The position numbers and the translations under genes were made by a program. From contig JAODTK010003777.1 of assembly GCA_026419785.1 (NCBI GenBank), positions 329,439-393,438 of the forward strand: a DNA stretch of 64,000 nucleotides. The letters are read 5' to 3'. Positions 300 to 25,421 of the stretch are shown here, piece by piece; position 1 is the stretch's first letter, and every line of letters begins with the position of its first letter. The DNA is from Sclerodactyla briareus. Its lineage: Eukaryota; Echinodermata; Holothuroidea; Dendrochirotida; Sclerodactylidae. The notes beneath the pieces were generated by a model. It was not told the origin of the DNA and ran no database searches. It saw nothing but the letters and a program-made list of their open reading frames with translations.

Positions 300-440
300 G
301 AGGTGCACTATGGCGAACGATACTGCTGAACTTTCGTCATGAAACTCTGGCCCCCTCGTCGGGGAAATCCTGGTGCCGACTCTGTCAGGACGTTGATCAG
401 TGATGCGCAAGTACCTGAAAAACGGATTGTTTAGGCTGAT
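300..440 (-). CDS. Possible exon following the stalk exon (unrecognised)
   Basis: The stalk exon ends in phase 0. The next minus-strand acceptor with a short pyrimidine tract ends TTTTCTAG, just above base 440. Phase-0 reading from base 440 stays open to base 1 of the window. It begins ISLNNPFFRYLRITDQRPD and continues through RISPTRGPEFHDESSAVSF near base 300. Below about base 290 the frame becomes a run of Phe and Leu encoded by a pyrimidine tract, which looks more like an intron than a transmembrane segment, so the true exon end is unclear. An alternative acceptor at TTTTTCAG near base 425 opens a different frame ending at a stop near base 310. No domain is recognised. Confidence 0.22.
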
Positions 441-704
441 CTAGAAAACTTGCCAAGAGTGTAACCCCTCTATAGCTACTGCAGTCCCGGTATCTCGCTT
501 TCATTTCTAGATTAGAACAACCATTCCCCTTTTCCAGTTGGGATGACACGATTGCTCCAAACAGAGCAGTGATAAAGCATACAACAAATCGAGTGCAACC
601 TGGCTACCAGTCCAGAGCAACTCTGGATGTATGCCACGGGATTGCATGAACTTTCCCGCCCCTCAACTGCTCCACAGCTAAAAAATAAACGTTTAGGAAC
701 TCAC
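441..704. other. Probable intron between the stalk exon and the possible next exon
   Basis: This stretch begins, on the minus strand, with the GTGAGT donor of the stalk exon. A short hydrophobic minus-strand frame (FVVCFITALFGAIVSS, around 535-590) resembles part of a membrane segment, but it has only 16 apolar residues and no good splice sites. I do not call it. Confidence 0.4.
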
Positions 705-787
705 CAGATTCCCGAAGACCTCTAATTGTGAAGCTTTACTAGGTGTGGTCAGTGGTAGTGATGTCGTTGTAGGCATTTCAAAGTCAA
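705..787 (-). CDS. Stalk exon of the SRCR/WSC/CUB gene, Thr/Ser/Pro-rich
   Basis: The 83-bp exon has a strong acceptor (CCTTTTTTTGCAG) and a consensus donor (CTG then GTGAGT). Only one of the three frames is open, and it starts in phase 1, like the upstream modules. It reads DFEMPTTTSLPLTTPSKASQ, then about seven more residues, and ends in phase 0. The PTTTSLPLTTPS stretch is typical of an O-glycosylated spacer between extracellular modules and a membrane anchor. That role is an inference from composition and from its position at the 3' end of the module array. The phase-1 entry fits the CUB exon if that exon also ends in phase 1. A chance splice-site pair around 83 bp remains possible, since the exon is too short for a domain match. 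Confidence 0.5.
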
Positions 788-1143
788 CTGCAAAAAAAGG
801 TAACAAAATACGTCGATGATTCACGTGATTATATTCGTAAGTTCTGTAAGGTACCTAATGGATTAGAATATTATTTAAGGCTGAATTTTCAATTTAACCG
901 GCAGATCCCATTTGTTCTCCAATCACGTGGCAATGCAAACTTTACAAGCCTCCGTTTTATCTGACAAGGTCGCCAAGTCTAACCTATAGTCAGTACATTC
1001 TAAACTGTATTCAATTTCCAAACACAATGTCAAATTCTCGAACATACCAATGCTCAACTGCCAAACGCTCTAAAAATGTTTATTTTCTAGATATAAGAAT
1101 CAACGTGAAATGTGACGTCATAACTTAAATGTCAAATTCCTTA

Positions 1144-1230
1144 ACACTGTTTTTTGGAGTGTACCGGCGGCAGGGTGTTCCAGTTGACTCAGTCTCTTCC
1201 TTACCCCTCCCGAATAAACTAAACTTAAAC
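1144..1230 (+). mobile_element. SINE family B, 3'-end fragment
   Basis: The segment shares ACACTGTTTTTTGGAGT, a short CCGRCGG core, CTTACCC and the end AATAAACTAAACTTAAAC with the 3' end of the full-length minus-strand element at 41930-42348. In both copies a CATA-rich microsatellite follows directly. Confidence 0.7.
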
Positions 1231-1378
1231 ACACATACACGCTACCACACATACATACATTACATACATAACATACATACATAATACATACATACATACA
1301 TACATACATACAACATACATACATACATACATACTGAACCATCTGACAATACTGACATACTGACATACATACTGACAT
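1231..1378. repeat. CATA/CA-rich microsatellite
   Basis: Imperfect tandem ACAT units with short ACTG interruptions follow the tail of the SINE-B fragment. The same arrangement is seen beside the full-length copy at 41.9 kb. It is followed at about 1379-1430 by a motif containing TTCGTCAAGGAATAA(T), which recurs near 5725 and 53645. Confidence 0.85.
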
Positions 1379-1430
1379 GACTGCATAGATTCTATGACCT
1401 CGTCAAGGAATAATAACAGAACGGGAAAGT

Positions 1431-2597
1431 AATTCTGCCGGGCCCTACCTGCTGAATGTGAATCCTAGGCCCCGAGAAGGGAGGGGGTACCCAAATTGGT
1501 CAGAAATAGATATACGAGGTACCAGCTGAAACAACTGTAAATTGTACAATATGATGAACTGTTCTCCGAAATGTACATGCAATAAATGCCAGTTGCTGGA
1601 ATGGGCCCGACAGAAGAGAAAACGGGCCACAAGAAATGGTCGAAAATTAATATTAATACGTACCAGTCGGAACCAAGTTAATTTATAGACTACCCACGAA
1701 AGACCATAGAATGAGCCATGTAAGAAAAAAATTGGGTGCTGGTTTAGCCGTCCCAGAAGACTTTTATCTGGGCTCCTCTGGGACCACCCTATCATATATA
1801 GCCTGACCACAGAAACAGATACATATATATATGTAGGCCCATTGTGAACGAATTGAACGAAATAACCACATAACGATATGCATGAAATGATTTTGAAGTT
1901 ATCATGATTCCCATGATCACTATGATTCCTGCGATGGACCCACGTGGGGGAATACTCGCGGTTTTAGTGATACTATGTTAGTAAAAGAACGCACTTATAC
2001 AAGTCGTAATTCTTCGGCGCACTTTTCTGGAGCATATGCGTCTATTTGGTTATCAGAGTAGGCTACACATGGATCTCATGGGAGCGGTAGATGATAATGT
2101 AGAAAGTTACATCAATAGATATTTGCTGTACTTTTATGTTATCCGGTCTCGCTGGGATGTGCTCTTTCTACATGAGCTGGGAAAAGATTCTCAACAATCT
2201 TAAGAGATTTTCTGCCAAGGAGCTTTCCTGTGAAGAAAACATCTACGCGGTACTCAGAGCAGCGGCTGCCTACCTACGAGAGGGGGGAAATAATAACAAT
2301 GTCCACCCCCCCCCCCTTTTTTGACGAATGTGGGACATAAGTCGCATGCCTCTGGTCGCAAATCTCTACCCCAGGGAGAAACAACAGGGCAAAACCATCG
2401 TCATCTAGGGGAAAACACTACCATAGCTGAAGGCGTGAGAGATGTTTTCATATGAATACGTGTAAGCTATAGTGGGGGTCAAAAGGAACAAATGTCGTCC
2501 TGAACAAGTCATTATCTTCCCAAAAACAAATGTCCTGTTGGCAATTGTACTCTCGGAGTCGGTCTCTCATGGGGAGTGGTAAGAGCAAGCTTCTGGA
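1431..2597. other. Intronic stretch without supported gene content
   Basis: A 121-codon minus frame (1445-1810) and a 62-codon plus frame (2136-2324) are open but have no family resemblance. Nothing else is supported. Confidence 0.4.
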
Positions 2598-2805
2598 GAA
2601 CGGACGATGAACGTTCCTCGGGTCGATGTGACGATGATAGATGGTGGGTTACTTCCCCATGAGTTGCCGCTCACAATTGGTCACATGATGTTATGTGGGA
2701 GCCTGGAGAGCGAGAAACATATTGGCACATGCATGTTCCAATCGTGGAGACGAAATACATCCTATCTTCGACACATACATGCCGATGTCTTTGAGAGCTA
2801 GTCCT
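2598..2805 (-). pseudogene. Second WSC-like segment, one frame break
   Basis: After the minus-strand acceptor TTTCCCCGCAG, the frame contains MYFVSTIGTCMCQ followed by SRSPGSHITSCDQL. This parallels the intact WSC exon, which has YAALARGTDCYCS then SLSRPTSNCDQPC. A stop follows the Leu. Moving one base, the next frame reads SGNSWGSNPPSIIV, which matches the family's final C-x-G-N...GG...S-hydrophobic pattern. A single missing base at the Cys codon (TG then AGC) would restore both the cysteine and the frame. The first half of a WSC domain, with the MT-x-E-x-C-x-x-x-C segment, is not visible upstream, and no clear donor follows. This may be a partial exon with assembly errors or a decayed module. 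The assignment rests on about 40 residues. Confidence 0.35.
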
Positions 2806-3059
2806 CTGCGGGGAAATGATATCTGTTATCGATGGCCCAGCTTCAAATTAATCCTGTCAGAAATAGCTTCCCTCGTGTGGTACATGGTACCAACAAAATG
2901 AGGGAAAGTGCTCGGGTAGACGACTTTCCGTGCTTCACATGGTGACAGGTGCTTTCGTTTCACATTCAGCAGGGATATTTCAAAGATGCCCGCCAACCAA
3001 CAAGAACACTCAGGGCGTGCACGTTACGAAGGGCGAACACATCCTCACCTAATTCGTCA

Positions 3060-3960
3060 TTCGTCAAAGTACTTGCTGCTGGAAGCTATGGCCATACCCG
3101 CGGTCTATGTTTTTCGTAGTATAGTCTTCAACAATATGTCCCCCACTACCTGACTACTGAACGAAGCTAGGTCATGATGGAAGAGTTCGTCCGTGGATGA
3201 GGAAAGATACGCTAAGCTCATCCGTATGATAGGCGGAATTGACAAGGCTATCTGTCATGGTATTTTCATATTGAGTTGGAATTTTATTTATTCATTCGAA
3301 TGAAACATTCGTGATCTATTCACCAGCTGGTTGGATTGGATGCTTGGTATTCATGTTCTGGATATCTGAATTTGTTCCTTTGCGAAAATCCTTTGTAAAA
3401 TTGCGGTTTTTGAGTTTTTCATCGTTCTATTTAGGCTATAGGCAAAACAACATCCAATTCAAAATGCCTCATCTATTTCGCAGGTATAGGGCCCGACTGG
3501 AATGAATTTTCGCATTATGGGGGATACTTCCCCTCGCTGAATATTGGAACCTCCTCCAACGTCAATGATACCTGCTGATTACCTACTGGCTTGTATATAA
3601 AGACATATCTCTGCAGTGCGTCACCACTAACGATCTACTGTATCAACGCCTTGTCTATTGATTTATGAAGGTTCCGTTCAAGAGGTTATTTTCGGATGAA
3701 TCTTTGGATGAGGCCAGTTGTAACACGTTGTTACGGTGTAACCATTCTCAGCGATATGATAGACCTATTCCAATATTGAAGAGAAAGGAAATTACAATTT
3801 GAACGAGACGTTGATGCAGTAGGCAGACGGGTCATTGACGACGCACTGGGGAAATGTTGGTTGTGTATGCCGGAATAAACGTCAACAAGTAGTACCACTA
3901 ATATATCAACATAACACACGGACTACTGGCTTGAAACTACGACTGCGCGTATACTATCAG
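3060..3960 (-). other. Stretch with broken CUB-like fragments
   Basis: Two minus-strand fragments vaguely resemble CUB sequence. One, near 3720-3860, reads CVVNDPSAYCINVSFKL, a stop, FPFSSILE, a stop, then VYHIAENGYTVTTC. The other, near 3170-3280, reads VNSAYHTDELSVSFLIHG. Both are interrupted and lack complete splice sites, though CGAATTAG followed by GTGAGG (about 3050) could be a donor. They could be further decayed modules of the same gene or chance frames. Confidence 0.15.
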
Positions 3961-4149
3961 TCAGGAGGTCGAGTAATGGAAGAGTGTAACTCCGAGACAT
4001 TACTCCCTGCATAGTTTGCTAATAGCCTCGATGAAGATCGGCTTCGCATTCTCACGTTAGTTACATCCCGGCATGACGAGGTTCTTGGCGTGACATATCG
4101 AGGTCGCCATGATACCGGCTCGTTTTGCTATGAGTTAGCTCAACCTCAC

Positions 4150-4547
4150 CTTTGAAAGTCTCGAATTGATAACGAACCACTTAGCACTGCTGCTCGAAGA
4201 GAAACCGATCGTCATGTTCTTGTGAAGTACATTATAGGTGCATTTTTCTCAATCGGTTCCCTCGTCCTCCATATCACATCCCCTGCGCTGCTCTCGTCAC
4301 GTTCCAACGTAAATCTGGCTTCACCGGTCTCGAGGGTGGACCGATGACCGTCTCCGCCTCGAAGGTGACCCGAGACTACTGCTCGCTCCGAGCTCAGCGC
4401 CGATCACTTCGATATGAGTACGGTTGTAGAAGTCGGTCTCGAAGTGCCCAGGTCGCAGGATTGACGAGGGCGCGTAGCCTGGGAAACCGGGGGAAGTGAC
4501 GTAGCCGGAATTGGACGTGACGTCCCCCTCGCATGATCCAAGAATAG
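4150..4547 (-). CDS. CUB-like domain exon, with frame breaks
   Basis: The exon is bounded by a good acceptor (TTCCTATCGATATTTGTTGCAG) and a consensus donor (CAAAG then GTGAGG), 398 bp. It enters in phase 1 and reads ILGSCEGDVTSNSGYVTSPG followed by FPGYAPSS, the classic opening of a CUB domain (C...G-x-I/V-x-SP-x-FP-x-x-Y). Later frames give TGEARFTLERDESSAGDVIW, then REPIEKNAPIMYF, then NMTIGFSSSSSAKWF, which matches the family's closing P...L-x-I-x-F-S-D-x-S...GF. At least three shifts between frames are needed, and a length of 398 suggests one or more missing bases relative to a multiple of three. If the exon ends in phase 1, the last residues read RYQFETFK and join the stalk exon in phase. 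CUB domains bind protein or sugar ligands outside the cell. Whether the breaks are assembly errors or decay is unresolved. Confidence 0.62.
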
Positions 4548-4699
4548 CTGCAACAAATATCGATAGGAAAATGATGCAATCTTGAACAGGGTATAGGAAT
4601 CAATGCACTTTGAAATCTATATTATAGACGCGTTCCAAACGTGATTGCGAAATAAGGGTGGTGTTTGAGAAGTTGTAAATTACCAAACACAGTTCAGTG

Positions 4700-5655
4700 T
4701 GAGATTGGTAACCAGAAAGCCAAAAGGCTTAGTGATTCCTTGACTGTTTCTGTCAACCTATAGCCAGACACACGGACAAATGGGAGATTGTACTAGCTCA
4801 TTATGGGCAACGCAACGTCTGACCAATTTCCTATTTTTCCCAACCAACTGATCGGGTTCTGTACCCTTGTAAGAAAGCTACACCCTAATTTCAAGGTTTT
4901 CAGATTTTGAACTCTGCTAACCTCCGATGACCTCTATCATGAACCCAAAAACAATAGGGTTCTGTACTCATCATGGGGAACCCACAAACCAAGTATGAGC
5001 TTCATCCTCCCTGGTGGGGTCGAGCTATCGGTTTACCAAGCCAAAATTGGCCAAATATGACTTTTCACAAAGGGGTTTTCTGTTTTTGTAAAATTCACCC
5101 TCGACTGGCACCAAAGACAATAGGATGCCTGTACCCCCCCATAATTGAGAAACTAATAACCTAATTTCAACTTCATCGGATCAAGCATTCGGACTTATCG
5201 TGTTCCGACACTCGACCTCTGGTGACCTCAGATGACCTCTGACCTTCCCCCACAATAATTAGGGTTCAGTACTACAATGAGGAAACACATACAAAGTATG
5301 AGCTTCATCCATCAGGTGAAGATGAGTTATCGTGTTTGCAAGCCAAAATTGGCCAAAATATCGCGAATTTCACAAATTTTCTATTTTCGACCAAAATTCC
5401 AATCGACCTCAGAAACCAAAAATCAATAGGTTACCTGTAATACCACATAAGAAAGTTGTTACACGAAATTTTCACTGATCGGACCAACCACTCTGGGACT
5501 TATTGTGTTTACAAGGTTTTCCAGAACTGGGCCCTCTGGTGACTTCAGATGACGTCACTGACCTGACTAAAAAAATGGGGTTCAAGTACTCATAATGGGG
5601 GACACAATACCAAGTATGAACCTTACCTACTCAGACCTGATCGAGTTATCGTGTT
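4700..5655 (+). repeat. Dispersed repeat family E, about 310-bp tandem units
   Basis: Three successive units carry the core CAAGTATGAGCTTCATCC or a close variant (near 4990, 5296 and 5612), followed by GTTATCGTGTTTRCAAGCC and AAAATTGGCCAAAATA. TGACCTCTGGTGACC blocks lie between units. The leading edge AAAGCCAAAAGGCTTAGTGA (about 4717) recurs at 63478, where a second locus runs to the window end. A fragment lies at 53540-53600. Confidence 0.7.
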
Positions 5656-7376: not shown

Positions 7377-7432
7377 TCGTTGAACCCTATTTTTGGTGTC
7401 TATTTAGGTCACCAAAGGTAAATTAGACTTAC

Positions 7433-7717
7433 TGTCATAGATCGCGCTGTGCGTCCCCGATAATCCGCCACAAGCCTGTTCACTGTCGCCCTGACAGGGT
7501 TGGTCACAGTTTGAGGTCGGGCGACTCAGGGACGACCTCGGCAGCTCGTCGGAGCAATAGCAGTCGGTACCCCGGGCGAGAGCGGCGTACCTGTACCGCA
7601 TATCATTGAAGTTCCTGCATCCTTCCAGGCACTTCTCTATAGTCATGCCACCCGTGACCGGGTATCTGGTGTATCCTGGAAACGCTGCACCGGTGTAACA
7701 CCCTTTGTACCCAGGGA
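7433..7717 (-). CDS. WSC domain exon (complete module)
   Basis: The 285-bp exon is exactly divisible by three, enters and leaves in phase 1, and has an acceptor ending TATATACAG and a perfect donor (GACA then GTAAGT). It is fully open and encodes a whole WSC domain. The opening is PGYKGCYTGAAFPG, then MTIEKCLEGCRNF, YRYAALARGTDCYCS, TSNCDQPCQGDSEQACGG and HSAIYD. The eight cysteines and the GTxCYC and CxGxxxxxCGG motifs agree with the family (yeast cell-wall stress sensors, Kremen, polycystin-1 and many invertebrate receptors). WSC domains are extracellular and are thought to bind carbohydrates. A symmetrical 1-1 exon is a typical shuffling module. This is the firmest gene evidence in the window and shows the region is, or very recently was, a real gene. 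Confidence 0.9.
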
Positions 7718-7754
7718 CTGTATATAAGGTTGAAACGAAATTATATTATGAAAT

Positions 7755-7797
7755 TAAAATTATAATATATATATATATATATATAGATATATATATA

Positions 7798-9590: not shown

Positions 9591-9738
9591 GTTGACAAGC
9601 AGCCCAGGCTATTTGTTGGCAGTTATTATTCAGCTGGCAGGGGATATGGTCACTGAATTCAACTCGCAGTTCACGGATGGCGCCTGTTCAGGGTTCGATG
9701 GGTTATTCATGGTACGGTAAACATCGCTCCCTTGAATC
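9591..9738 (-). CDS. SRCR domain, second-half exon, with two frame breaks
   Basis: The acceptor is TTGTTTTCTTTCCCGGCAG and the donor is CAAC then GTAAGA. The 148-bp exon enters in phase 1 directly from the first SRCR exon, giving MGFKGAMFTVP. It then needs two one-base shifts: the next frame reads MNNPSNPEQAPSVNC and the last reads VEFSDHIPCQLNNNCQQIAW then AACQ. The cysteine order VxC...PC...NC...AxC is that of the C-terminal half of a scavenger receptor cysteine-rich domain. Both shifts are in the same direction, as if one base were lost each time. Restoring them conceptually would give 150 bp and phase-1 ends, in keeping with the rest of the gene. Two independent mutations leaving perfect splice sites are less likely than assembly indels, but decay cannot be excluded. 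Confidence 0.7.
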
Positions 9739-10750: not shown

Positions 10751-10882
10751 CCATTGATTTGCATACAATATTGGCGCTGTTGAAATTCCAATTACTGTCA
10801 GCACACAGTGTCGGGTCCCCCTTAAAATGGTGGTTTACGATGGTACCTCGCCATATCGACTCGGGGTCGAAACGAAAGGAAC
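10751..10882 (-). CDS. SRCR domain, first-half exon
   Basis: The exon is 132 bp, with acceptor TTTTATCTTCTGCTCACCCCAG and donor ATGG then GTGAGT. It is fully open with phase 1 at both ends. It encodes SFRFDPESIWRGTIVNHH followed by FKGDPTLCADSNWNFNSANI and VCKSMG. This matches the SRCR opening (R-L...G-x-V/I-x-V...VC-x-D-x-W...A-x-V-x-C-x-x-L/M-G), including the usual split at the MG codon. It joins in frame to 9591-9738 downstream. Upstream, phase 1 fits the signal-peptide exon at 25.4 kb. One SRCR cysteine plus the final Cys are present in this half, as in group A domains. SRCR domains act in scavenger receptors and innate immune recognition. Confidence 0.85.
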
Positions 10883-11680
10883 CTGGGGTGAGCAGAAGAT
10901 AAAATACCTTGAAAACCTCGTGATCTATAAGTCCGCGAAATTCATCACTGTTTAATGGCTTTCAAATACAGATTAGGAGTACGGATGCCAAACCCTAACA
11001 CACAAGTTTCAAGACAAAAAACAATACACAGCTTCATTTTATATTAACTATTGATTTGCGGTCAAAGGTGGTTTCAAAACGATCACTGTTCCGAAACGCG
11101 CAAGTTTGAAAAAAAAAGTTTTGCGAGAGAAGTCGAGTAGCCACAGGGTAGGGTGTCGTGGGAAGAGGAAGAAAGGCGAAACCAGTTTCGATACGACTGC
11201 AACTTAGTCCGAAACGCGCGATTCTGTGAGGGAAAATAGTAGTCTTTAAAAAATCAAGATGGTCGCCGTTGGAGTGGTATGACGACGCTCACTTAAAAAA
11301 GTCCGACATTTCCTCATTACGAACATGGGTGCGTTCCATCGCAGGTCAAATAAATCGGACAAGTACGATTGGAGAGTCAGAGCGCTAACGCAAATATTTC
11401 CAGGCCGGACTGGCGGAGACGACCGGCTCAGTCAACAACTTAATATAACCCCCTGGGACTAGTATAGTGGTCGAGGACTATACTGAAGACCGAGCCTCAG
11501 GAACTTAACGTACATTTGGGCTACAGACTGTGACCGATAGGTGTCATACCCCAATCCAAATCAAGCATATGTTTCCCCCAAATTCCGCACATTTTATCAA
11601 ATAAATTATTGCCTCTTAATGGTGAACACAAATAAAGTGGATAAATCTCCCAAATTATACTTGAATTCGATAGATCATAC
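10883..11680. other. Intron 1, 3' part
   Basis: Two copies of TCCGAAACGCGC (about 11092 and 11209) lie 117 bases apart. AAGATGGTCGCCGTT near 11259 resembles a YY1 site. No exon is supported. Confidence 0.3.
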
Positions 11681-11689
11681 GGAGGCAGA

Positions 11690-12480
11690 GGTACTTACAG
11701 ACTGCAGACACAAATGCTCCCCCGCTTACACCCAATTCACTCATTCACTAACGTGCACCACTAACACTTTATTCAATCACTCACTTCTCTACTACCATGC
11801 TCAGTCAGTCACTCCCTTTTATGGCAAAATACTTACTACTATTCACATACTTCCCATTCTACATTTCTATTTGGTCATTCTCCATGACCAATTGACCAGT
11901 AAGTTTTTAACACAAGAAAAACACTATTTGCACTGTGCAGTAGACGGTTCACAGCTGTTGTTTCGTTTTTGCGACAGCATAGGTCCAGGGACCCATAAAT
12001 TGCATTTACTGCCAATAGAGAGGATGAGGCTATAAATGAGGGGCGCACTTCTCTTCCGACCTCACCCCTCTCCCCGGGCTCCCCAAGACAAATCTCTCGT
12101 ACGCCACTGGGTCACTCACTTCCCTTCTATTAGACCACAGTCATCCAGGCTCTTATTCATTCACCCCCCCCCCCCCCCACTCATCTCCATACAGTAATAA
12201 TTCCAACACGTTTCTACCACAGACCTCGAGCACTCACTCACCCCAATACATTTTACTCATTCATATGCTTCCCCATCTACTTTCCTACACTTTACTACTT
12301 GGTCCCACACCTAAAATGGACCACAGTCATCCAGACCCTACCCAGTTCTCTAACTCCTTCCCATTACTTCTCCCCCACTTAGCTCTATGCGTTTGATTCT
12401 AAACGTTTCTATTCGTACGTCACAGACCTCATTCCACTCATGATTCACTGAATTCCCTCCGTCTCGAGCGTAGAGTGTCG
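11690..12480. repeat. Pyrimidine-rich CACTCATTCACT repeats with an oligo-G/C insertion element
   Basis: Irregular CACTCATT and TTCACTCAC words recur through 11730-12470. At 11960-12110 the block AGGTCCAGGGACCCATAAAT, GAGGATGAGGCTATA and GGGGCGCACTTCTCTTCC is shared with 40870-40960, so a dispersed element is embedded here. A 164-codon plus frame at 11541-12035 crosses it and is considered spurious. Confidence 0.6.
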
Positions 12481-12597
12481 GCATATTATATACGTACGAC
12501 TAGTCCGCTCTATCGTCCTCGGGTCTTGCCTTTTGCTCAATTCCCTCTTGAATTACGTGCTCCTTAAACCCAGTACAGTGTTTTTATGTTTATAGTT

Positions 12598-12625
12598 GGG
12601 GGGGGGGGGGGGGGGGGGTTTTTTT
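12598..12625. repeat. G21 followed by T7
   Basis: Uninterrupted homopolymers, visible directly. A GGGGGGG-rich run also lies at 12882-12897. Confidence 0.95.
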
Positions 12626-13253
12626 CTGCCCTCTGCCCTTTCGATTCCGGAATTCCTTCTCACGTATCTGAAGAACAATTCCACTCAATCCCCTTAGTTG
12701 CTAAGAACATAGATGGGCACGCGGGTGCCACGTAAGAAGGCTTGTCCTTTGTCTAACCTGGCTGTCCACTCTGGTTTTGATAATGGTTACTGGACTCTCG
12801 GAATCACAGGGTCTTCGGCCTCGTTCTCGTCTCAGACTCAATTCATTTTTTTCGTTCGACGGTTATGGGCGAGAGGTGTGGAGGGGGGGGGGGGGGGGAG
12901 GGTCGAGACTCGAGACAGTCACTTGAAATGTCATATGCGTACTTCCTGCTGACCCGTGAGGCAGATAGTCTAGTATTCTTATTCCTAGTATATATAATAA
13001 CACAGCTAACCGGGTGTGTTTTAATTAGCCCCATTGTTCAGGTCGGTCTCATGCCAATACCAAACCTTGAGTGTAAAGACGGATAAATAACCGGTGGGTG
13101 GGGTGGTGCAGAAAGTTCTGTTGCCTATTAGTGAATGATACATACACTCGGGCTGCCACTGTAACGTAGGCTCTGGCCTACCTGTGTTTGGGTATATCAC
13201 AGTCCTCTCAGCAGATTATGTCGTCCACCGTGTTCTTGGATAGGCCTATGGGG

Positions 13254-13255
<2 letters not shown>

Positions 13256-13295
<40 letters not shown>
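13256..13295. repeat. 40-base G run
   Basis: Forty consecutive G, then TGGGTGG. This is the longest homopolymer in the window. The exact length is unlikely to be reliable. Confidence 0.9.
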
Positions 13296-13296
<1 letters not shown>

Positions 13297-13299
13297 GGG

Positions 13300-14970
13300 T
13301 GGCCGTTTGTAGGGGCGTCCTACTTTACTATAGGACTGCGTGAATAACGCCGCTTCGCGATATCTCAGGTCCTGTCTGGGAGCTTAGGTCAGACTCACGT
13401 CTTGCTTGTACTGAAAATACTGGGTGAAAGGAAGTGGGGGCCCCCCATATATATGCGGGTATGCTCTCTCATGCGGTCAATGCTCAGTTATTTTCCTACT
13501 AGACCTGCAGTCCAAGACTACGAAGTGTGTGTGAGGAGGCAAAATTGTAACCTGTTGTTCCTCATTATGGCTATGAGCCTAGGCACACACAAACTCCGGT
13601 CCTTTTGCATGCCCCCGGGGGCCCCCAAAATGAATATGGGGCATAACAGAAATGTGGACATTTCTCCCAGTGATAAGAGTAAAAAGTTTTCTGAATTGTT
13701 CAGCGTTAAATATGTTTCAGAGTGTACGTGATGTCATGCAAACGACGAGGGTAAATTGTACGAGAGGACAATATACTGTGCCTACATCCTAGTTAACTTA
13801 CAAAGGTTAACTACCGAAATTGCGGACAAGCAGTACTGTCCTAAATCCAAAATCACTTAAAGAATACCGCACACCTTCATTGTTAATATCTGGTCCGGAG
13901 GGGCAGGAGGTGATGATGGTGCCATGTACGTATTTTGCGCAAGTGGAGTTGCTTTTTCACGGAGCGAGGTTCTACGTGCTCTCGCGATCGAGCGTGGGTG
14001 GACGCCATTTGTACACAGGCTCTTTCATGCACCCCCCCCCCCACACCGCCATTCACCCACCAGTGATCCCTGACACAATTTGGCACGATAACATTGTCTT
14101 TTAGTGTCCTCAATGTTACACCACACATTCATATAACATCATATGACTTTTATCGCAACCCTGGAAATTATTGGGGTGGTATGGGTTGTGTAGAGTGCCT
14201 CAATAGGTGAATTCTCAACGGGTATCCTCTTCGCTCCCATCTTCCCGCGTTATAGTCCGTCATACCCATCGAAGCAAGCTAATGATAGGCTACCCCAGAT
14301 TCTTAGTAGTCCTCTTTGCACCAGGTCTAGAATTGGTATTATTAACTAATGACTCCGTCGTTGTAAGTGGTCCTCGGTATAGAGAAGACATACTCGTCTC
14401 CCAGAATCAATGCACTTTCACCTGGGCTAAGCAACTCCATTCCTGAGAAACCATATCATACATATCAATCATGATTTGAATTTGTAAGTTTTGAGACTGT
14501 CACTTTAAGGTCAATTCCCGAAAGAAGAGGTTGGTTGTTCATTGTTTCGCAAAGAAACACAAAGGAAGCATTTCCTAAGCTGGTATTTTTATTGCCGTGA
14601 AAGTGTCCCTTGTGGGAATGGGTATGGTAGAGTGGAATTTCAATATTATTTCGACCATTGACATTCCAGATATTGAACCAGGGAGGGTAGATGCCTTGTT
14701 CGGAGTGCCCTGGTTTACATCAGTATGCTCAGTGTCATTAGAGTCCTCGTGATAAACCGAAACAGTGACCACCATACTGGTTATTTGAGTCATTATACTC
14801 TTGAATAATCACACTAGGCTATCTCAGAACACGCTAGGCGGGCCGCACGGCAAAACGCCCCTCGCCGCATGCTTCCTGATTACCGTGAGGTGAATGCGGA
14901 TTGCGTGCATCTGCTTTTTGCTTCCTTGGCAGCCAAAGGAATCTATTCAGTCACGCGTGTGCGTGTGTTG
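13300..14970. other. Intron 1, no supported gene content
   Basis: Open frames at 13402-13731 (plus), 13883-14128 (minus), 14207-14446 (plus) and 14575-14793 (minus) look partly protein-like but show no domain and no splice pair. C10-C11 runs lie near 14032 and elsewhere. Confidence 0.35.
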
Positions 14971-14976
14971 TGTACA

Positions 14977-15010
14977 GTGTGTGTGTGTGTGTGTGTGTGT
15001 GCGTGTGTGT
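14977..15010. repeat. GT microsatellite
   Basis: About 13 uninterrupted GT units, with degenerate GTGT-rich flanks from 14955 to 15040. Confidence 0.95.
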
Positions 15011-15129
15011 ATGCGTTGTGTGTTGTGTTTGTGGTGTGACACTTCGTTTCCACGCGATATCTAACAAACCAAGCATGTATTATGTTCAGATCAGGGTAGT
15101 TAGGTGTCAACCGATGAAGGGATGACCCC

Positions 15130-16080
15130 TCTTGTTTTCGGGGTACCAATCGATGGTCTTTCAAGGTCATTAAGGTCACACTTTGAAAAAGTGTTTCCGC
15201 ACGCATTCTAATGATCGCAAGCATGTATTAAATTCATATTCGGTAGGTCGTGAAATCATGGCGGGGATACCCCTTATTTTTTTTTGGTGTGAGTCAAGGT
15301 CACATTTAGGTCATCATATGGCAATCTTATCTATCTTGCCACGAAACATTTTAGAGTGATGTTGTAATAGAAAGTTTTCTTTCTGTCTGGTTGCAATACA
15401 TCTGGTGACCGACTTTGACCCTCATTTGACTTTTTGACCTTCTGACCTCAATTTGACCTCTGACTAGTGGATTTTTACCTGCTTTTTTGTGTTGGGCGGG
15501 AGCTCTTGTTAGACAAACAAAAAAGTCAATGCCCACTACCATACTAAGATACTCGTATCCACAAGCTATCTCATGATTTGAAGAGTAGTCCCATAAGCTT
15601 AACTCGTCATATATCTCGGCAACGAACATTTTGGAGGACTGCATAATGGAAGTTTCGTTCGTCTGGGTGAAATACATCTGGTGACCAACTTTGACCTCAT
15701 TGTGTTGACGCTATTTACCTTTTGCCCTCAGTTGACCTTTTGACCTGGTGATTTTTGCATGCTTTTTTATGTGTGGGCCGGAAGCGTCTTGTTGAACAAA
15801 CGACAAATCAATGACACTACCATAACTACGATACTCTTATCACAAGCTATCTCAATGAATGTGCACGACAGCTAAAACACTGGAATGTGGATAAATTTGG
15901 ATTTGACATCTGCTCCTCAGCAATGATATCTAATGAACTGCAAGTATCTTCACTTTCAAATTAAGTGTGTGGATTGTACACATGATGGAAATACCCTATT
16001 GTTTTTTGGTATCAAGTCAAAGTCATTCCAGTACACCATAGGACAATCCTTTAATCTCTGCAACGATTCATTGTACAGAG
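15130..16080. repeat. Tandem repeat, period about 280 bp, rich in TGACCT words
   Basis: Two full units start near 15340 and 15618. Shared landmarks, about 276-281 bases apart, are ATACATCTGGTGACC, GTGATTTTTRCMTGCTTTTT, TGTTRRACAAAC and CACAAGCTATCTCA. Flanking parts at 15130-15335 and 15940-16080 share TTTTTTGGTRTSAGTCAA and a GGWCAATC block, so a third, partial unit is present. Confidence 0.75.
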
Positions 16081-16119
16081 TGAGAACAAGCATATAGCCA
16101 ACCAAACAATTATTGCCCC

Positions 16120-16920
16120 CAGTGAATACATTACAGATTCTTGATTGTCTATTTTTATTGTTATTCCTGATATGTTTTATTAATTGGACTCGCACCAAAT
16201 ATTTCCCCCTAGACAGACAGTACAAATTCTTGAATTGTCATTTTATTATTAGCCCCAGTGACCAGCCTATATTACCCCTGACCAGTAGTGGTGTTTTTGC
16301 TACGGGTGGGGGTGGCATTTTGGTCTTGCCCGCAACCCCCCCCCCCCCAGGTTTCGTAGGCACTATGAAAATTTAAAAATGTAGCCCTGTTTGGACGCCT
16401 GCATCACTGCATTTATTGACAAATTCCTAATTTGCACAGCTAAACGCCTCTTCTTGGGGCCACGGTTTCAAAAAACAATAACCCCTGGTCCCCCCCTCTC
16501 ATTTAGTGTTACATTTTCGACCACAGTGTTGTTTTGGCCCGTCTTCATAAAATCTGGTTGCTTCCATTCCCCCCTCCCCCTCTCCGCCTCCCAATACCAG
16601 TATCCCCCCAGTGAAGTCAAAGTCTTCAATTGTCATTTTATTTTATTCCTGAATATGTCTGAATATTGGACTAGCACCAGTGACCATGCCTATGTATGTT
16701 ATGTATGTACCTCCTGATCAGTATGGTCAGTGTTGCTATGGTGCGTGGGATTGCAAGGCAGATACGCTCTTTCTTAATGCACCACCCCCCCCCCCTCCCC
16801 CAGTTTTTCATATTCGCCTATGAAAATTGGAAAATGTAGCCCTATTTGAAGCCTGCATCACTGCATTTCTTGACAACTTCCTATTAGCAAGGCAGATACG
16901 TTGCTTCTTGCGTATGCCCC
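16120..16920. repeat. Two-copy tandem duplication, about 490 bp apart
   Basis: Paired words include ATTCCTGATATGTTTTATTA with ATTCCTGAATATGTCTGAAT, GACTCGCACC with GACTAGCACC, GAAAATTTAAAAATGTAGCC with GAAAATTGGAAAATGTAGCC, and CCTGCATCACTGCATTT in both. C11-C13 runs occur in each copy. Confidence 0.7.
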
Positions 16921-19250
16921 CCGTCTATACGATATTGGATTCAAATGGGAGGGTAGACAACTGGCAATATTCGTCCATAGGCGTATCTTAATTTACTCGA
17001 GGGGAGAAGGCCAAGTTTGTTGTTTAATTAATCATGAAAACGGTGATATGAGTCTTCAAATTCTTCCATTTAACTAGTTATTTTACACGCAGAAACGCAC
17101 ACCAGAAATGTCCGCTGAATTCATTTTGAACACCTATGTAGCCCCGCCATTATCCTCTTCAACGACTGTCTGCATTGTGTGTGTAATACTATAATACTCC
17201 TTCAGTTTTGACTGGTCAAATTCCCAATCCTCAAAAGGAGTTTAATCTCTCAAGCTTTGCTGTGTAGACTGCAAAGAAGTGAGAGTAAACAACACATAAA
17301 CTTAGACTGCCTGTCAGACTTCTGTGAATGGTCCAAACCCCCCCCCGGGGGGCCCCCATGGCCTGGCAAGGCTCAGAGGATTGATAGGGGGTATCAATTC
17401 TTCTCTGTGGTGCACTCATGTCTACTGATTGTCTGATTGTTTTACACTCCCTACTGGGATGCGCAAGCCCTTCCAGGTTGTGAATGGACTTGACAGGCAT
17501 GACTGACCATTGGGGTATTATTACCTGTGATCATAGACAAGCCCTAATGACGGGATTAACTGTGGTGTGTGTGAAGCAGTGAAGTTGGGAGGAAGAAGAA
17601 AGCAAGGGTCAAGGTAGCTTCTGAAAGTAGGAAGGGCACAACATTTTTGGCATTTTTTGCTATTGAAGCAAAAAGTGAGGGCATTAACCTGTACCCATGA
17701 GCAAAAAGTGAGGGCCTTACCCTGTACCCCCCCCAGGCAGAATGGGCAGGTTTAAGTCTATAAAGTAGCTCTCTTCTTCCCCCAGTGCTCTCATCTGTGT
17801 GACTGTCACACTGATTGACTATTTGGGAAAAGTGATTGCCAAGATAATAACATGTTAAACATTGGCCAGAAGTCATAATGATCAAACATTAACTGAAGCC
17901 CCACATAATTCATGAAATGTCTCAACATGGCTATATATATACTAGAAAATTACCAGATCTTGTCCTGTTTTCTATTATCTATTTGTATTATATTATCGTG
18001 CAAGCAGATATTATTTGGTTATGGGAGTGCTGCATGGGGTGAGCTATATAGAGAGGCAATTCTCAAACACAACCCATGTAGGAGAGAATTGGGATTGAAA
18101 GCCTTGTGAAAAGTTTGACCCTAAAAAGAGCAATCAAACATTTGATTGGACTGTAAAATGGCTATTGATACAAGTATTTCTGAACAGTTATGCCTTGTCA
18201 ATTGCATGACCCACCCCTGGTAACCCCAACAAGGTGTAGTCATTGCCACTTCAAACAAATGATGCACACCTCAGTCCACTTGTGCCGAAAAATAATGAAA
18301 ATTGATACACCCACATCACTTTGAAAGACACAGATACTCTGCTGTACCAATTGAAAATTGACTGCGCTCACTGACTACCCCTCGCACATTATTGAATAAC
18401 GACATCACGGTACAATGACCAACATGTGGAGCACCATGCTATTGGACAATGAAAGTACCTACAATGACTCGCCTTTTCCAGGGTCGGGAGAGATGCAATT
18501 GATAATATATAGGCCTGCATGCACTTCGCTTTCCCCACACATATACCCTAAAAAAGATATTTTTCAAATTTGGTAATGGGTTGGTGTCCGATTAATTTAA
18601 AAAACTCCACTTCATTCAATCTATTGCTTTGAACCACATAATTCACTTCATGAGTCATGAAATGTGTAAAGTTATCCTCATCATTTAGCCGTGCTGCAGT
18701 CTCCTGACTTAGTGTTACGGTCGGTGGGACTTCCCACAATGAATGGAAACATGGACTTCGCTGGTTAAAGACTCGTGACTTTACCTTGTCTCTTCAAGAT
18801 TATACTATTCCAGGTTTATATTTCAGTATTTATTTCAATTGCCATCAGATGAACTTTTGACCTTGGTCAAAAGCAGTAAGCATCTCTTGCGGTTGTAAAT
18901 ATTCCAGGTGATCGTTTTGTGTCAAGTGTTGGTTTGGGTGGCAACACACATTTGACAGGGTTTGATATAGATGAGAAAGGGGAAACATGTCAGGAAAAAA
19001 AGGGCAAGAATCACGACGCAGAGTGCGTTTCTTGTTGGTAAACGTAGGCTACACGCAACTTCAGCAAACGTGCATCTGGCACGGCAAACTCATCCTCTAA
19101 GTTTGTTTCTACCTTGAGGCACATTTGTAAGCATGACCTAGATATCTACAGTACTGCCTTTATACCCAATCGCATACGCAATAGGCCTACATCTAACCAC
19201 ACACGGCCACTCGAGGGGTTCAGCAGGCTGTAGGGGGGGGTATGATAAGG
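16921..19250. other. Intron 1, no supported gene content
   Basis: A plus-strand stretch at 18003-18060 (FGYGSAAWGELYREAIL) recalls the C-terminal region of non-LTR reverse transcriptases, but it is too short to call. A minus frame at 18548-18790 is protein-like without family or splice support. Confidence 0.3.
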
Positions 19251-19254
19251 AACA

Positions 19255-20110
19255 CATTGTATTTATATTAGTTGTATTTATATCCCCGCAAACTTTTGTT
19301 TGGGGGCGTGGTAGCCGAACGTTCGGCCGCCACCGCCGCAGCCGAAAATTTCGGCTGAACAACAGGTAGTGCATTTTGACGTCCACTAGAGGACAATGTG
19401 ATTCCTCTAAATGCGGTCCACAAAGGTTTTTTCTTCTTTTCTGCGGGGTATACTGATTTACGTCGGCGGTTTAACCCTATTCACTGCCCAGTTGGTACAA
19501 GTTGCACCTTTACAATTACATTACACCGTGACAAGGGTTAACACTTAGAAATTGTTAATCCAATGAGGGGAACTTCAGGGAAGGGACATGTCTCTTATAT
19601 ATCTTCTTATAAATTATGGTTTTGGGTGTGTAGAGCCGCCGCCGTCCCAGACCAGCCGCCGCTGCGTGAATCTTTGTGACGTTAGCGCAATAACTCTTAA
19701 ACGCTTATCGATTGATCCGAAACTTGGGACACAGTCCGCCTATGTGAAATCTCGGATGATTCAAAAGTGGGCATCACTTCAATGCTGGTAGCCTCTGATT
19801 TGCAAAATTTTACGCTAACTTTAACAGCTAAATTTCAGTCTTATTGAAACGAACTTTGTGGATAGGGACCTAGTTGATCCCAAAAAAATGTGGGGTCATT
19901 TCAAGGGTACTGGAGGTCAAATTTGCGATTTATGCGATTTCCAACTTAGTCTATTTTGAACAAAACTTGGTGGATGGGGGGTACATTTTCCCATGGAATT
20001 ACAACAACTTGGGGGGTGAATCTTTAGTTTTCTGACTAAAAGGAGGTCCTTTAGGGGGTGTTAGCGGGATATACACGTGAAGCGGTTTCCCGCCCCACAT
20101 GTCAGTTTTG
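19255..20110. repeat. Dispersed repeat family F (GGGATATACACGTG family)
   Basis: The segment 19590-20100 begins ATTATGGTTTTGGGTGTGTA and GCCGCCGCCG, passes through CAAAACTTGGTGGATGGGGG and ends GCGGGATATACACGTGAAGC followed by a CCCGCC block. The start matches 21965-22020 and, on the minus strand, 57830-57850. The end matches 61415-61445. A head-to-head partial copy lies at 19262-19345 (TATATCCCCGCAAACTTTTG, then GCCGCCACCGCCGC). Confidence 0.65.
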
Positions 20111-21950
20111 TAGGTGTTTCTGCAACCTTTTCAAAAGTTTGTTTGAACGATCTGAACCTCTGCTCTGTCCTGTAACAGCATGGAATCTTTTCCGCTTACT
20201 ATAGTACCTATTACATTTGTGTTAAGCGTCATTATTGCATTGCGTAACCCTCCACAATCTCTGCCTCACTGTAACGTTTTGGACGACGCAGCAAACAAAT
20301 CATCATAACCGCATAACGCCGGCTTAATACTGCCCCATAAACGTACTAGGTCTACAAATGCCATAGCACATGCAAACCAAATTGAACGATGCACCAATCT
20401 AGCCCGGCACCACGAATCACGCTCCAGCTGGTTAGGTACTGCTACATGTAGGATATGGAGATAAGTAATACCTCATGTTTTTTCTTTGTTTCTTTTTTTC
20501 CCTTTTTTTTTATGTCAGTGCCGCGGCAATGCACAGCCGACGTTAGGCATCAACCACTCGCCCTACCTTCCACCTAGATGAAGAAAAGGACCCTGGTACA
20601 GATGCCGTACGTCGTGGTACCCCTACATGCACCGCATACTGGCCCTTTTTTCCCCACCATGTTGGCTTCTACCTAAAATTGTCGTCTAGCAGCGATTTGA
20701 AGTAAAAGTAAAATAACTGTAATGTTTCTGATTTAATGATACACAAACTGATGCAATTTCTTGTTCTCCGGTGTAGCTCGACGGGGACATTTTCTTTCTT
20801 CAAATATCTAAATCATCAACGTTTCATACTTCCCCCGTTAATATAACCTTCCCTGTGCACAAGCATTCGTCTGAAACGGAACGTTGCTTCAGCCCACAAA
20901 CTCTGTGAAAATGCTCCATAAATAAATTTCACTGCATGTTAATCTGAGTGGAAACAACATTCGCCCCATAAGAAATTTACGCGATGTATTTATCATTTAG
21001 TTCAGTCAGCCTTTATTCAGGTCTTACTTCCAGCACCTGGCCACGAAGCTACCCATAACTAATTGTATGATCAGTTGTATTGACTGATATGTGACAAACT
21101 TACTATTGAAAAAAAAAAAGCAGTGAAACGCTAGTATTAGGTCAAAATTCGTAATTGTGGATAAGTACCTGTGGCGAAACGAATACATTCAGTACGAACC
21201 GGCCGGCTTTGTCTTTTTGAATTCGCGGGAATGATCTCATTTTCTCCAGAATAGGAATGATTTGATTGTAATTGTGAGAGATATCGAACGGATGGCATTC
21301 ATTTTCAATATCATTGATGCTTATTTTCTCGAATATTTAAGGCCGACGGAACTTTAGTACATAGCATGATATGCCAGACTGCCCAGTACTAAAATGTGGT
21401 ACGGCCGACAATGATGGATTCGACTTGACACATAGAGTCAGTTAGGGATCGGTATGTATGTTTAAAAAGTCATTATAATATCAACCACCTCGCAAAGAAT
21501 GGACGGCGCAGTTGCCTGTGGAAATTTCAAATTCACACCGAGATGCCAGCATGTTGCTCTGAAACTAACACAGATGAGGAGAGCGTATCTACAACAAAAA
21601 ATCGAATCTAGAGCTTCAAACTCTTCCGATCTTGTGTTATGTACAATGGAGAAGGTATATCATCGTGTCGCAACACCTACAGAGCAATGGACGGTTCCGT
21701 TTTACTTGAATCTACACCCCCAAAAACCGTCCACTGTCTAAACGAAAACGTTCGCGCTCACATGCATCACGACGATATAGGATATCGTTCGTTGCACGAA
21801 ATGCAATAAGGCGGTTTTTCGTCGGGACGTCGTGCGAAAGACGTCGCGTCTTGCCCGTTGCTGCTAGATGCCTACTTTAACCATGTGTGCAGAATTTCTT
21901 GACAACTTTCGACATCGACTCTCGTCGCGGAAAGGCGAGTAATTTCAGTT
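20111..21950. other. Intron 1, no supported gene content
   Basis: A strong plus-strand acceptor-like tract (TTTCTTTTTTTCCC..TATGTCAG) ends at 20518, but all three following frames close within about 20 codons. A plus frame at 21499-21741 is unassigned. Confidence 0.35.
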
Positions 21951-21957
21951 ATATCCC

Positions 21958-22165
21958 ATGGGGATATTATGGTTTTGGGTGTGTAGCCGCCGGCCGTCAA
22001 GGGCTCCGCCGCCGCCGCCGGAAACTTTAGGCGTTTAGCGCAATAACTTCTTCTAGGCCGAGGTGATTAAGGAATGCACTGACGCGAATAGGGGCATTTC
22101 ATGGCAAATTCGTCTCCCAAAATTGGCAGGATATGTACCGGCAAATGACCTAGGTATGACTATGG
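21958..22165 (+). repeat. Family F, 5'-end copy
   Basis: It begins GGGATATTATGGTTTTGGGT and GTGTAGCCGCCG, and includes GGCGTTTAGCGCAATAACTT, matching the copies at 19.6 and 57.8 kb. Confidence 0.6.
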
Positions 22166-23270
22166 ATTTTACCAGATATGGGCTTTGGCAAGGCGAGGTT
22201 AAACCTCGAATAACCAAAAAAAAGTCGTTATAGTGAAAATGATGAAACTACACTAAAAGGATCGGTCCCTGACCGTCAACGGTTTAGTGAAATTTATGAG
22301 AGTTCCGTAGTGATGGCACTCTACACGGTTCCTCTATGCCGTTGTACAGTGTGAACAGCTTAAGGCGATGAGTTTGAACCACTGCTGTGGCCATATGAGG
22401 ATGGGCAAGAAAACATGTCACGTGCCTGGCAGGATTTTGATGCACGTCGCCATGCGCGGCGGAGGCTCTCTTATAGAGATATGCCAAGACCTTGCCAACC
22501 AACCATTTAGGCTTTGACATAAACACAAAATAATTAATATACTCACTGCATTCAAGAGTAGGTCTACCTAATATCGATAGTTGCAAAAAAAGCATGGTCG
22601 CAAAAAGCTCCTTTGCGGCTTGCAGTTCTACCATATGGCGCATCAATAAAATGCTTGAGGTACATAGTGTACAAAATTGCGTCAAGCATAATAATTTCAT
22701 TTCGGAAAATAGTTCCATATGTTTTTGTAAACAACTATATATGTGTCCATGAATTGAACGAACATACCCTAAACGAAACGCTAACTGTTTCTTATGATCA
22801 GTAATTTAGATTTTTTCCTTCTTTCTTCTTTTTTCGATGCGTTAGGAAATGAAACTTTTAAACACCTATGATCTTTCCTCATAGATTATTTGGACCCAAA
22901 CCAATATTCATAATATAAAGTACGATGTAACATGTAGGCATAAATTAAGTGCGAATTCATTCAAAACTATCTTGCATATTTCACTTCCTTGGAAATTTGC
23001 GAGTTATGATGATTAGGATAATTCCTCATTAAAAAAGATTCTGATGACTGACCTAATTGCCATGCATGTTTCCAATACCATGATGTATATGATGTATGAC
23101 TAGGGTGGTTCCATATCTAATAAAAGCATGAATTTGATGAGCGCGTTTTGAAAGCAACCTTTGGAACTGATAAAATCGCATTCCATAAACCACTTATGCC
23201 TGGTCGTAAATCATGTGTAAATGTATACTAAAAAGGAATCCGGCAGTCAAAGTTAAAAAAACTATTGTCG
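22166..23270. other. Intron 1, no supported gene content
   Basis: A 144-codon minus frame at 22284-22718 has a GTGAGT donor-like site inside it (GCA then GTGAGT, near 22544) but no domain resemblance. Confidence 0.3.
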
Positions 23271-23275
23271 ACGGT

Positions 23276-23293
23276 TCCATAAACGTTTATGGA
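23276..23293. other. 18-bp perfect palindrome
   Basis: TCCATAAACGTTTATGGA reads the same on both strands. Function unknown. Confidence 0.9.
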
Positions 23294-23380
23294 GGTACGG
23301 AACGTTAAAAACCACTTGCATCGTTGTGTTCCTTTTTGTATCAGCCTGAATGAAAGTCAGGAGGAGACTTAGTGTCACTA

Positions 23381-23386
23381 TGCGTG

Positions 23387-23419
<33 letters not shown>

Positions 23420-23470
23420 TGTGTGTGTGTGCGTGTGCTGTGTATTGGTGTGTGTGTGTGATATCTTTCG
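23381..23470. repeat. TG-rich microsatellite
   Basis: Two TG runs are joined by TATGTATGTATTG and GCGTGTGCTG, with a third TG run ending near 23460. Confidence 0.95.
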
Positions 23471-23704
23471 AACGTAATGCAATTGCGACGAGCTCGGGTT
23501 GTGTGAACACGATATGATTAAATTTTGGGCACGGAAGTCACTTATTAAGTAAGTTAATTAGGCTATTTTATGTTATTTATTTAGGGCTCTTAGCCGATTA
23601 CGGATGATCCGTAGATGCTATGGTGACTCGGTTTGGCACATATATGCGGGATATCAGTATAATTAACTGAGTAATTTTCAGCGTAAATATGGTATTAAGT
23701 TCGT

Positions 23705-24035
23705 TCTAATTTGCATAATTGTAGCGGAATTCAAAGTTTGTTGGATTCCACGAAACTTGTGAATATGGTCTACTTCATCCCAAAACTTTTAAACAAAGAT
23801 TGTGGTCATGAGGTCTTTCTCAACTACCGAATGCATATTTTATGCGAAATCTTCAAGTTCCTTGGATTTTATGAAAACCTGGTGGGTATGGTTCACATTG
23901 AGTTCCATTTTTTTTTATCATGGTTCAGGTTCACTGGAGGTCATTCACGGTCTCCTTTGCATAATTTATGGGTATTTCAAAAATTCCGTATTCTCGTGAA
24001 ACTTGGTAAATTGCCTCAAATCAGCATAATTTAGG
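23705..24035 (+). repeat. Dispersed family C1 (CATGAAAATCCAACCAACTT family)
   Basis: It carries GGATTYYATGAAA, AACTTGG/GTGRRTATGGT and repeated TTTGCATAATT words also found, mostly in reverse orientation, at 37560-37990 and 61920-62130. In those copies the form is TTTTCATGAAAATCCAACCAACTT, given in two parts: TTTTCATGAAAATC and CAACCAACTT. Confidence 0.6.
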
Positions 24036-24290
24036 CAAGATTAAGCACATTTTCTACAAAACTTTTACTCCTTAGTAGACTTGTCATGATCAGTTCTTTT
24101 CGGATTTGAAATTGGTCACTGATTAGTAGGCTGTTTCTGTTAAAAACTAATACCAAATCTTTAAAGCGACACTGGAATGCCTTGTAATTGTTTGCAGGTG
24201 ACCTATAAAGTAAACACTGATTCGCGCAACCATGCAAGACACGGGGGCGATCGCCTTGTTTTTTCTTCACATGGGATACCTGGCCGAGCC
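24036..24290 (-). repeat. Dispersed family C2, minus-strand copy
   Basis: On the minus strand, ACAAGGCGATCGCCCCCGTG, GGTTGCGCGA, CTGCAAACAATTACAAGG and TTTAACAGAAACAGC correspond in order to the plus-strand block 37296-37430. The 180-codon minus frame at 24031-24573 is built from this copy plus a SINE and is not a gene. Confidence 0.7.
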
Positions 24291-24429
24291 TATGGGGGCA
24301 TACCTTTTTTGTCGCGCGATTCCTACACCTGGGTACACAGCATTTTGCAATGCTTGTTTGGCGGTACCTTTGGGTTTGTGAGGGGGAGGGGTTCACAGTT
24401 GAATTGCCTACCTCCAGTTTGTTGTTTGT

Positions 24430-24582
24430 ACCTGCTCCGGTCCCTATGCTGAGCGCTGCAGCCAATAGGCAGGTAGGCAACAGGTTACCATTCCTCAAGT
24501 CGGTGGTACTGACCCGGAACAGAGATTCGACCCACGATTCCCGGGAGGCGAACCGGACACCTAGTGACTTCAAACGCTTTTG
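24430..24582 (-). mobile_element. SINE family B, 5' (tRNA-like) part
   Basis: On the minus strand, GTCACTAGGTGTCCGGTTCG and CCTCCCGGGAAT precede a B box GGGTCGAATCTC. The following body, with ACCTGTTGCC, a GCTCAGCA block and GGACCGG..CAGGTA, aligns with the full-length copy at 41930-42348. Confidence 0.6.
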
Positions 24583-24604
24583 CAGCTTTCACAAAGTCAT
24601 CGAA

Positions 24605-24990
24605 AAGATGTATGTTACCTAAACAAACATTTTACAAAGGAAGCTAACTATGGGATTTGATTGAAAATTACAAATTTGTTCACAAGTTATGGAAGATGAT
24701 TTCATATTTCGACTATGAATATTACTAAATTTTCTGCTAATGGTGCAAAATACAGCATTTACTGGTGTAAAAGTCGTTAGGCGACCCTTCGCAATCGTTT
24801 CTCTGGTGACGTTATCAGGTACGGTGAATTTCATTCAAGTTAAATAAATAACTCATCAAGGAACATGCCAAATCGCCCCAAATTTTGTTTTATGGGGTTG
24901 ACGTTGTCCTCTTGTCATCGCGCCTTTTTTTTAAAGATGATCTGTTGTTGACCATTGTACTTTAAGTATAGGACCCACATCAGTTCGTTC
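24605..24990 (+). repeat. Dispersed family D copy
   Basis: It shares AACAAACATTTTACAAA-like, CTATGGGATTTGATTGAAAA, TTGTTCACAA, TGTCCTCTT and GACCATTG words in the same order as 26300-26660. Confidence 0.6.
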
Positions 24991-25039
24991 CGTTGACCGA
25001 GCCCTGGGGTTATTTTAGTTCATTGGATGGAGGCCCAAC

Positions 25040-25145
25040 TGAGTGGCGTACTGAAAGATTTGTCTGGGGGTGAGGTGGGACCCAAGGGGACGCGCGCCCT
25101 ATATCTTACCCCCCCCCCTCCTCCCTCTCATGGCAAAATAAATGC
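25040..25145. mobile_element. Oligo-G element beginning GAGTGGCGTA
   Basis: GAGTGGCGTACTGAAAGATT is followed by a G-rich then C-rich stretch (C9). Similar AGTGGCGT plus oligo-G starts lie near 40730, and their complement TACGCCAC near 12093 and 33338, suggesting a non-autonomous DNA transposon family. Confidence 0.4.
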
Positions 25146-25331
25146 ATTAAGGACCCCCTAGGGGTAAAGGAAGCATGCTACTGCACATATTTGATAGAAG
25201 AAAAAGCTGTGAAAGTGGTCCTGGGGTTAATTCAATAGTCTCAGGTTCACGGGGGAGGGGGTCAGACCAGACCCTCCTAACGAAGTATGATGTCCTGGGT
25301 TTAGTTTTAGAGCAGGAACGCATGTACTTAC

Positions 25332-25421
25332 TGTCATAACATGTAACAGCTCCAAGCAATTGCAAACAAATTAGAACCAATCTGAAGAGATTATCGATAT
25401 ATTTCTACGAATAAGATCCAT
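25332..25421 (-). CDS. First coding exon: signal peptide of the SRCR/WSC/CUB gene
   Basis: On the minus strand, ATG at 25421 gives MDLIRRNIS. A one-base shift then gives LFRLVLICLQLLGAVTCYD, and the exon ends GACA followed by a perfect GTAAGT donor. Basic N-terminal residues, an apolar core (LVLICLQLLGAV) and a small-residue or Cys cleavage region make a convincing secretory signal. The donor is in phase 1, the usual phase after a signal peptide, and matches the phase-1 entry of the SRCR exon at 10882. As written, the ATG frame meets a stop and the signal frame lacks an ATG. One missing base near TCGATAATC would reconcile them and make 91 coding bases, which is what a phase-1 end needs. The link to exons 14 kb away is an inference from strand, phase and order. 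Confidence 0.58.

Follow-up and report, generated by a model that had tools for sequence, protein, structure and literature searches.

A candidate Kremen-like WSC-CUB receptor gene with an SRCR-like half-exon upstream of the WSC exon in Sclerodactyla briareus

KREMEN1 and KREMEN2 are type I membrane proteins that act as Dickkopf receptors, and the WSC domain is also carried by WSCD-type and other WSC proteins. The domain order of Kremen is given as Kringle-WSC-CUB (PMC5014086, PMC3927609), with a membrane span beyond a linker of ~70 residues (PMC5014086). PMC5014086 also describes four disulfides in the WSC domain of KREMEN1 and contacts of its kringle and WSC domains with Dickkopf, and PMC3927609 describes a phase-0 intron within the WSC domain of Xenopus kremen 2 and the combination of kringle and SRCR in neurotrypsin. 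No SRCR-WSC-CUB protein came up in our search of open literature, although one may well have been published.

We analysed a window of 64,000 nucleotides (positions 329439-393438), which is the terminal part of contig C2321, together with the adjoining 30 kb to its left (L015-L017); the assembly searched comprises 319 Mb in 3171 contigs. A preliminary description had proposed that the window holds a single-pass receptor-like gene, with signal peptide, SRCR, WSC, CUB-like module, possible second WSC and Thr/Ser/Pro stalk in that order on one strand. Every element of the putative gene lies on the minus strand, the direction of reading being from 25.4 kb towards the left window edge and beyond it:

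25332..25404, minus strand: hydrophobic stretch before a phase-1 donor, without an in-frame start codon; its membership in the gene is unproven.
10751..10882, minus strand: SRCR-like N-terminal half-exon, phase 1-1; 14.3 bits with Pfam, scan score 29.0, fitted p 0.001.
9591..9738, minus strand: weakly supported candidate, in a broken frame, for the other half of the SRCR; top of 152 AG sites, 34.0 to 33.1.
7433..7717, minus strand: WSC domain exon, phase 1-1, with 8 cysteines and splice signals; PF01822 60 bits, KREMEN1 top in the PDB.
4150..4547, minus strand: CUB-like exon, with CUB support confined to 4410-4533 and three in-frame stops as read.
705..787, minus strand: Thr/Ser/Pro-rich exon-like stretch, a possible stalk, open and with good splice signals; phase 1 in, phase 0 out.

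The WSC domain at 7433-7717 is genuine, and this module of the preliminary description is borne out. PF01822 matched the exon over its whole model (positions 1-82 of 82) with 60 bits (cut-off 27.8; E 2.7e-16), and the exon is fully open, encodes 8 cysteines and is bounded by an acceptor and a donor that are both in phase 1. Comparison with the PDB returned six sequences, of which four KREMEN1 chains came first (E 1.7e-5 to 3.9e-5, the match spanning 85 query residues), followed by 9n3u (0.00084) and 7pz2 (0.02). The 8 cysteines of the locus resemble KREMEN1, for whose WSC domain PMC5014086 gives four disulfides, whereas the WSC domain of Xenopus kremen 2 is split by a phase-0 intron (PMC3927609) and that of the locus lies in one exon. 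The WSC domain was the sole Pfam match in the three minus-strand frames of window positions 1-26004 at E up to 1, and no domain was detected in the three plus-strand frames of 11001-21001 or on the minus strand of L015; these searches used long frame translations, in which short exons can be missed. The possible second WSC was not found by profile: nothing exceeded background in the window and L015, and the best score in L016 and L017 was 22.4, with background elsewhere reaching up to 25.9. Searches for tRNAs and Rfam families gave no match, and neither did searches for COX1 and tektin as species markers.

The assembly contains 5 WSC matches, of which that at 7433-7717 scores highest. WSCD-type and other WSC proteins have the domain in common with the locus, whereas no CUB or SRCR score over background was obtained in the 10 to 40 kb around each of the other 4 matches. 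On the four contigs with a WSC match, no CUB or SRCR Pfam match was present among the matches listed. Contig C2458 carries two intact WSC domains ~30 kb apart (L018 5464-5736 and L021 4887-5144).

The supported start of a CUB domain sits ~2.9 kb downstream of the WSC exon. The exon-like stretch 4150-4547 opens with a phase-1 acceptor, followed by ~30 residues that resemble the beginning of a CUB domain; Pfam returned nothing for this stretch, even at E up to 10. A phmmer search of the PDB with 33 CUB-like residues returned 18 sequences, including neuropilins, PCOLCE1 (0.0032), cubilin and MASPs, with three non-structural proteins closing the list at E 1.2; the best value, 0.0012 for neuropilin-1, is a sum over two weak stretches (5.7 and 29). 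Because the CUB-like stretch changes frame, we used a frameshift-tolerant profile scan written for this locus, with frameshift costs of 6 or 4. A profile of five human CUB domains, put together after the CUB site had been seen, scored 34.4 / 37.8 (cost 6 / 4) at 4410-4533, compared with 21.7 for the next best site in 26 kb of both strands, a maximum of 20.8 in 12 other regions and a maximum of 24.4 in 24 first-order Markov shuffles, giving a fitted extreme-value p of 3.5e-6 for the site. When 17 CUB sequences from the genome were added to the five human ones, the site scored 31.1 or 36.4 and the next best 19.1 or 19.5. By contrast, the profile of the 17 genome sequences alone, many of which are without the N-terminal part, scored 16.5 there, second to 18.0 elsewhere. 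The 3' two thirds of the domain gave no signal over shuffles or background (three frameshift costs, 60 shuffles, 60 window pieces), and the exon as read is interrupted by three stops and has a phase-0 end. Of the proposed CUB-like module, the N-terminal third is supported by the human profile (37.8 against 21.7) and the remainder is not; Pfam and the genome CUB profile missed the module altogether.

Evidence for an SRCR upstream of the WSC exon is suggestive. Pfam matched the half-exon at 10751-10882 with 14.3 bits (cut-off 26.1; E 0.053) over model positions 21-40 of 100, so that a complete SRCR of ~100 residues above the curated cut-off was not found, and the match is of chance size: among 10 other ORFs of the window, 3 also matched a Pfam model by chance (E 0.015, 0.043 and 0.076). 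In a phmmer search of the PDB, the half-exon returned 19 sequences with SRCR proteins on top (PIT54 0.00032; CD163/M130 0.0022 and up), these values being summed over repeats, with single stretches at ~9-10 at best. It ranked first among 3391 ORFs with a profile of 8 SRCR domains from the genome (E 0.11), and the frameshift-tolerant SRCR scan gave 27.0 or 29.0 at the half-exon against 17.2 or 17.5 for the next best site; none of 12 other regions scored above 21.3 and none of 24 shuffles above 25.2, with a fitted p of ~0.001. The second SRCR half by itself was without support (three frameshift costs, 60 shuffles, 60 window pieces). In a test that joined the first half to the sequence following every one of 152 AG sites, the top rank went, by only 34.0 to 33.1, to the site before 9738, which has the richest pyrimidine tract among the best 12 of the 152; the joining took the exon start as 10884 rather than 10882, and the scored part starts further in. 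What stands of the proposed SRCR module is the signal of an N-terminal half-exon (29.0 against 17.5), not the full domain, and we do not regard the SRCR as established. The 20-residue core match is shared with CD163/M130, DMBT1 and neurotrypsin, whereas the locus has half of one SRCR beside a WSC domain and no SRCR array. The genome is rich in SRCR, with at least 100 part-matches, many of them clustered (contigs C2769, C2936, C2854, C1081, C2159 and others), compared with the 5 WSC matches.

With KREMEN1 and KREMEN2 the locus has a WSC followed by the start of a CUB in common; it differs in that no kringle was detected, the SRCR-like half-exon occupies the place of the kringle, and no convincing membrane span was found. 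A profile built from four kringles, scanned across the full window with frameshifts allowed, scored at most 20.9, a background value, whereas the control L014 gave 39.8. In outline the locus resembles the ectodomain of a Kremen, with a WSC domain but no detectable N-terminal kringle; its assignment as Kremen proper was rejected because the scan found no kringle over background. The genome-wide kringle search yielded one match, below cut-off. On L014 (contig C2936), half-kringle matches lie at 702-782 and 1507-1563 (39.8 and 32.7), and the contig also carries SRCR and CUB matches. The preliminary description knew of no standard protein of the proposed order and overlooked that WSC-CUB is the order of Kremen; novelty would therefore be confined to an SRCR instead of the kringle.

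The outer parts of the gene model fared less well. Of the 3 hydrophobic stretches detected ahead of the 39 GTRAGT sites of the minus strand, that at 25332-25404 ranks highest, but as a signal peptide it fails as read: a TAG immediately precedes it, no ATG is in frame, and the ATG at 25421, where the proposed gene ended, opens another frame that stops after 16 codons. Nor was a single-pass protein upheld, since 4.2 kb of the window and the 30 kb downstream yielded six hydrophobic 20-mers, none of them convincing by eye as a spliced membrane exon. The stretch at 705-787, open and with good splice signals, is compatible with the proposed stalk, but the phase-0 end of the CUB exon does not fit it directly. 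The claim of one strand and compatible phases holds in part: no element lies on the plus strand, both the WSC exon and the SRCR-like one have phase 1-1, and the acceptors of the CUB and stalk exons are in phase 1, with the CUB exon end as the exception. Elsewhere in the window, a minisatellite of ~24 copies with a unit of 56-57 bases occupies 35483-36816.

Frame changes within conserved exons also occur elsewhere in this assembly, in HSP70 (L046, contig C2424) and actin (L056 and L057, contigs C2792 and C1260). Two of the 4 other WSC matches change frame as well (L011, L012), and ten pairs of adjoining SRCR part-matches lie in differing frames (for example, C2854:350339-350467 and 350460-350612). 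We read these changes as small insertion or deletion errors of the assembly, and some copies may be pseudogenes. Because actin, HSP70 and half of the other WSC matches change frame too, broken frames at the locus need not mean a pseudogene; by the same token, stops argue only weakly for decay, as do open frames and phases for a gene model. The frame changes in HSP70 and actin lower the quality of all gene calling in this genome. The assembly yielded 14 HSP70 and 16 actin pieces, and these low numbers suggest that the sequence or the initial search is incomplete, so that the failure to find another Kremen means little.

A Kremen-like WSC-CUB receptor gene is likely at this locus, judging from the sequence, because the WSC exon reaches 60 bits, KREMEN1 is its nearest solved relative and the CUB start has a fitted p of 3.5e-6. 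The explanation we tentatively prefer, although we put it slightly short of even chances, is a minus-strand receptor-like gene with WSC then CUB as in Kremen and probably a divergent SRCR in front, its frames broken by assembly indels. A single gene with the SRCR in front is favoured by the common strand, the Kremen-like order, the phase-1 acceptors and the strong splice signals, and is weakened by an SRCR below cut-off, a CUB missed by Pfam and the genome profile, the unsupported 3' part of the CUB and second half of the SRCR, and the lack of a span and a start codon. The locus might instead encode a Kremen-type WSC-CUB receptor, or a Kremen with a diverged or unseen kringle, the SRCR-like stretch being a chance match. 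The chance size of the SRCR Pfam match, the unconvincing second half and the proximity of the WSC domain to KREMEN1 agree with this, whereas the score of 29.0, above all 24 shuffles and 12 other regions, and the window's best kringle score of 20.9 argue against it, and we regard it as unlikely, if a serious contender.

A pseudogene, derived from a WSC-CUB receptor gene and now missing half the SRCR and the greater part of the CUB, would account for the three stops read within the CUB exon and for the missing profile support for the rest of both domains even at a cheap frameshift cost; given the fully open WSC exon with its 8 cysteines and the frame changes in conserved genes of the same assembly, it appears improbable. 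Less probable still is that different genes are involved, the stretch at 25.4 kb, perhaps together with the SRCR-like exon, being separate from the WSC gene. That stretch lacks its own start codon and is 14 kb from the next candidate exon, whereas no other Pfam domain was detected between them (minus strand 1-26004, plus strand 11001-21001), with the reservation that long translations can miss short exons. Of the receptor-like SRCR-WSC-CUB gene as described, the WSC domain and the CUB start are supported and the SRCR half-exon is suggestive; the full SRCR, second WSC, signal peptide with start codon and membrane span are not supported, and the complete single-pass protein as one transcript is unproven.

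On the preferred reading of a minus-strand gene with a divergent SRCR in front, the observed WSC exon and CUB start, with a putative SRCR, would be joined in one transcript and the product secreted. The Ser/Thr-rich stalk might then hold the extracellular unit at the cell surface, where its SRCR-WSC-CUB face could capture a protein or glycan ligand. We consider it doubtful that the locus encodes an intact surface receptor of this kind, that is, a Kremen relative with SRCR for kringle and a ligand other than Dickkopf, in which a Wnt-regulator scaffold would serve, for instance, as immune or glycan receptor. If the SRCR-WSC-CUB order is false, the locus would hold a WSC-CUB receptor gene of the ordinary kind, poorly assembled, and would warn that arguments from frame and phase are weak in this genome. 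If it is true, the exchanged domain would be one of the two Dickkopf contacts of KREMEN1 described in PMC5014086, and the gene would offer a test of roles of Kremen-type proteins apart from Wnt control.
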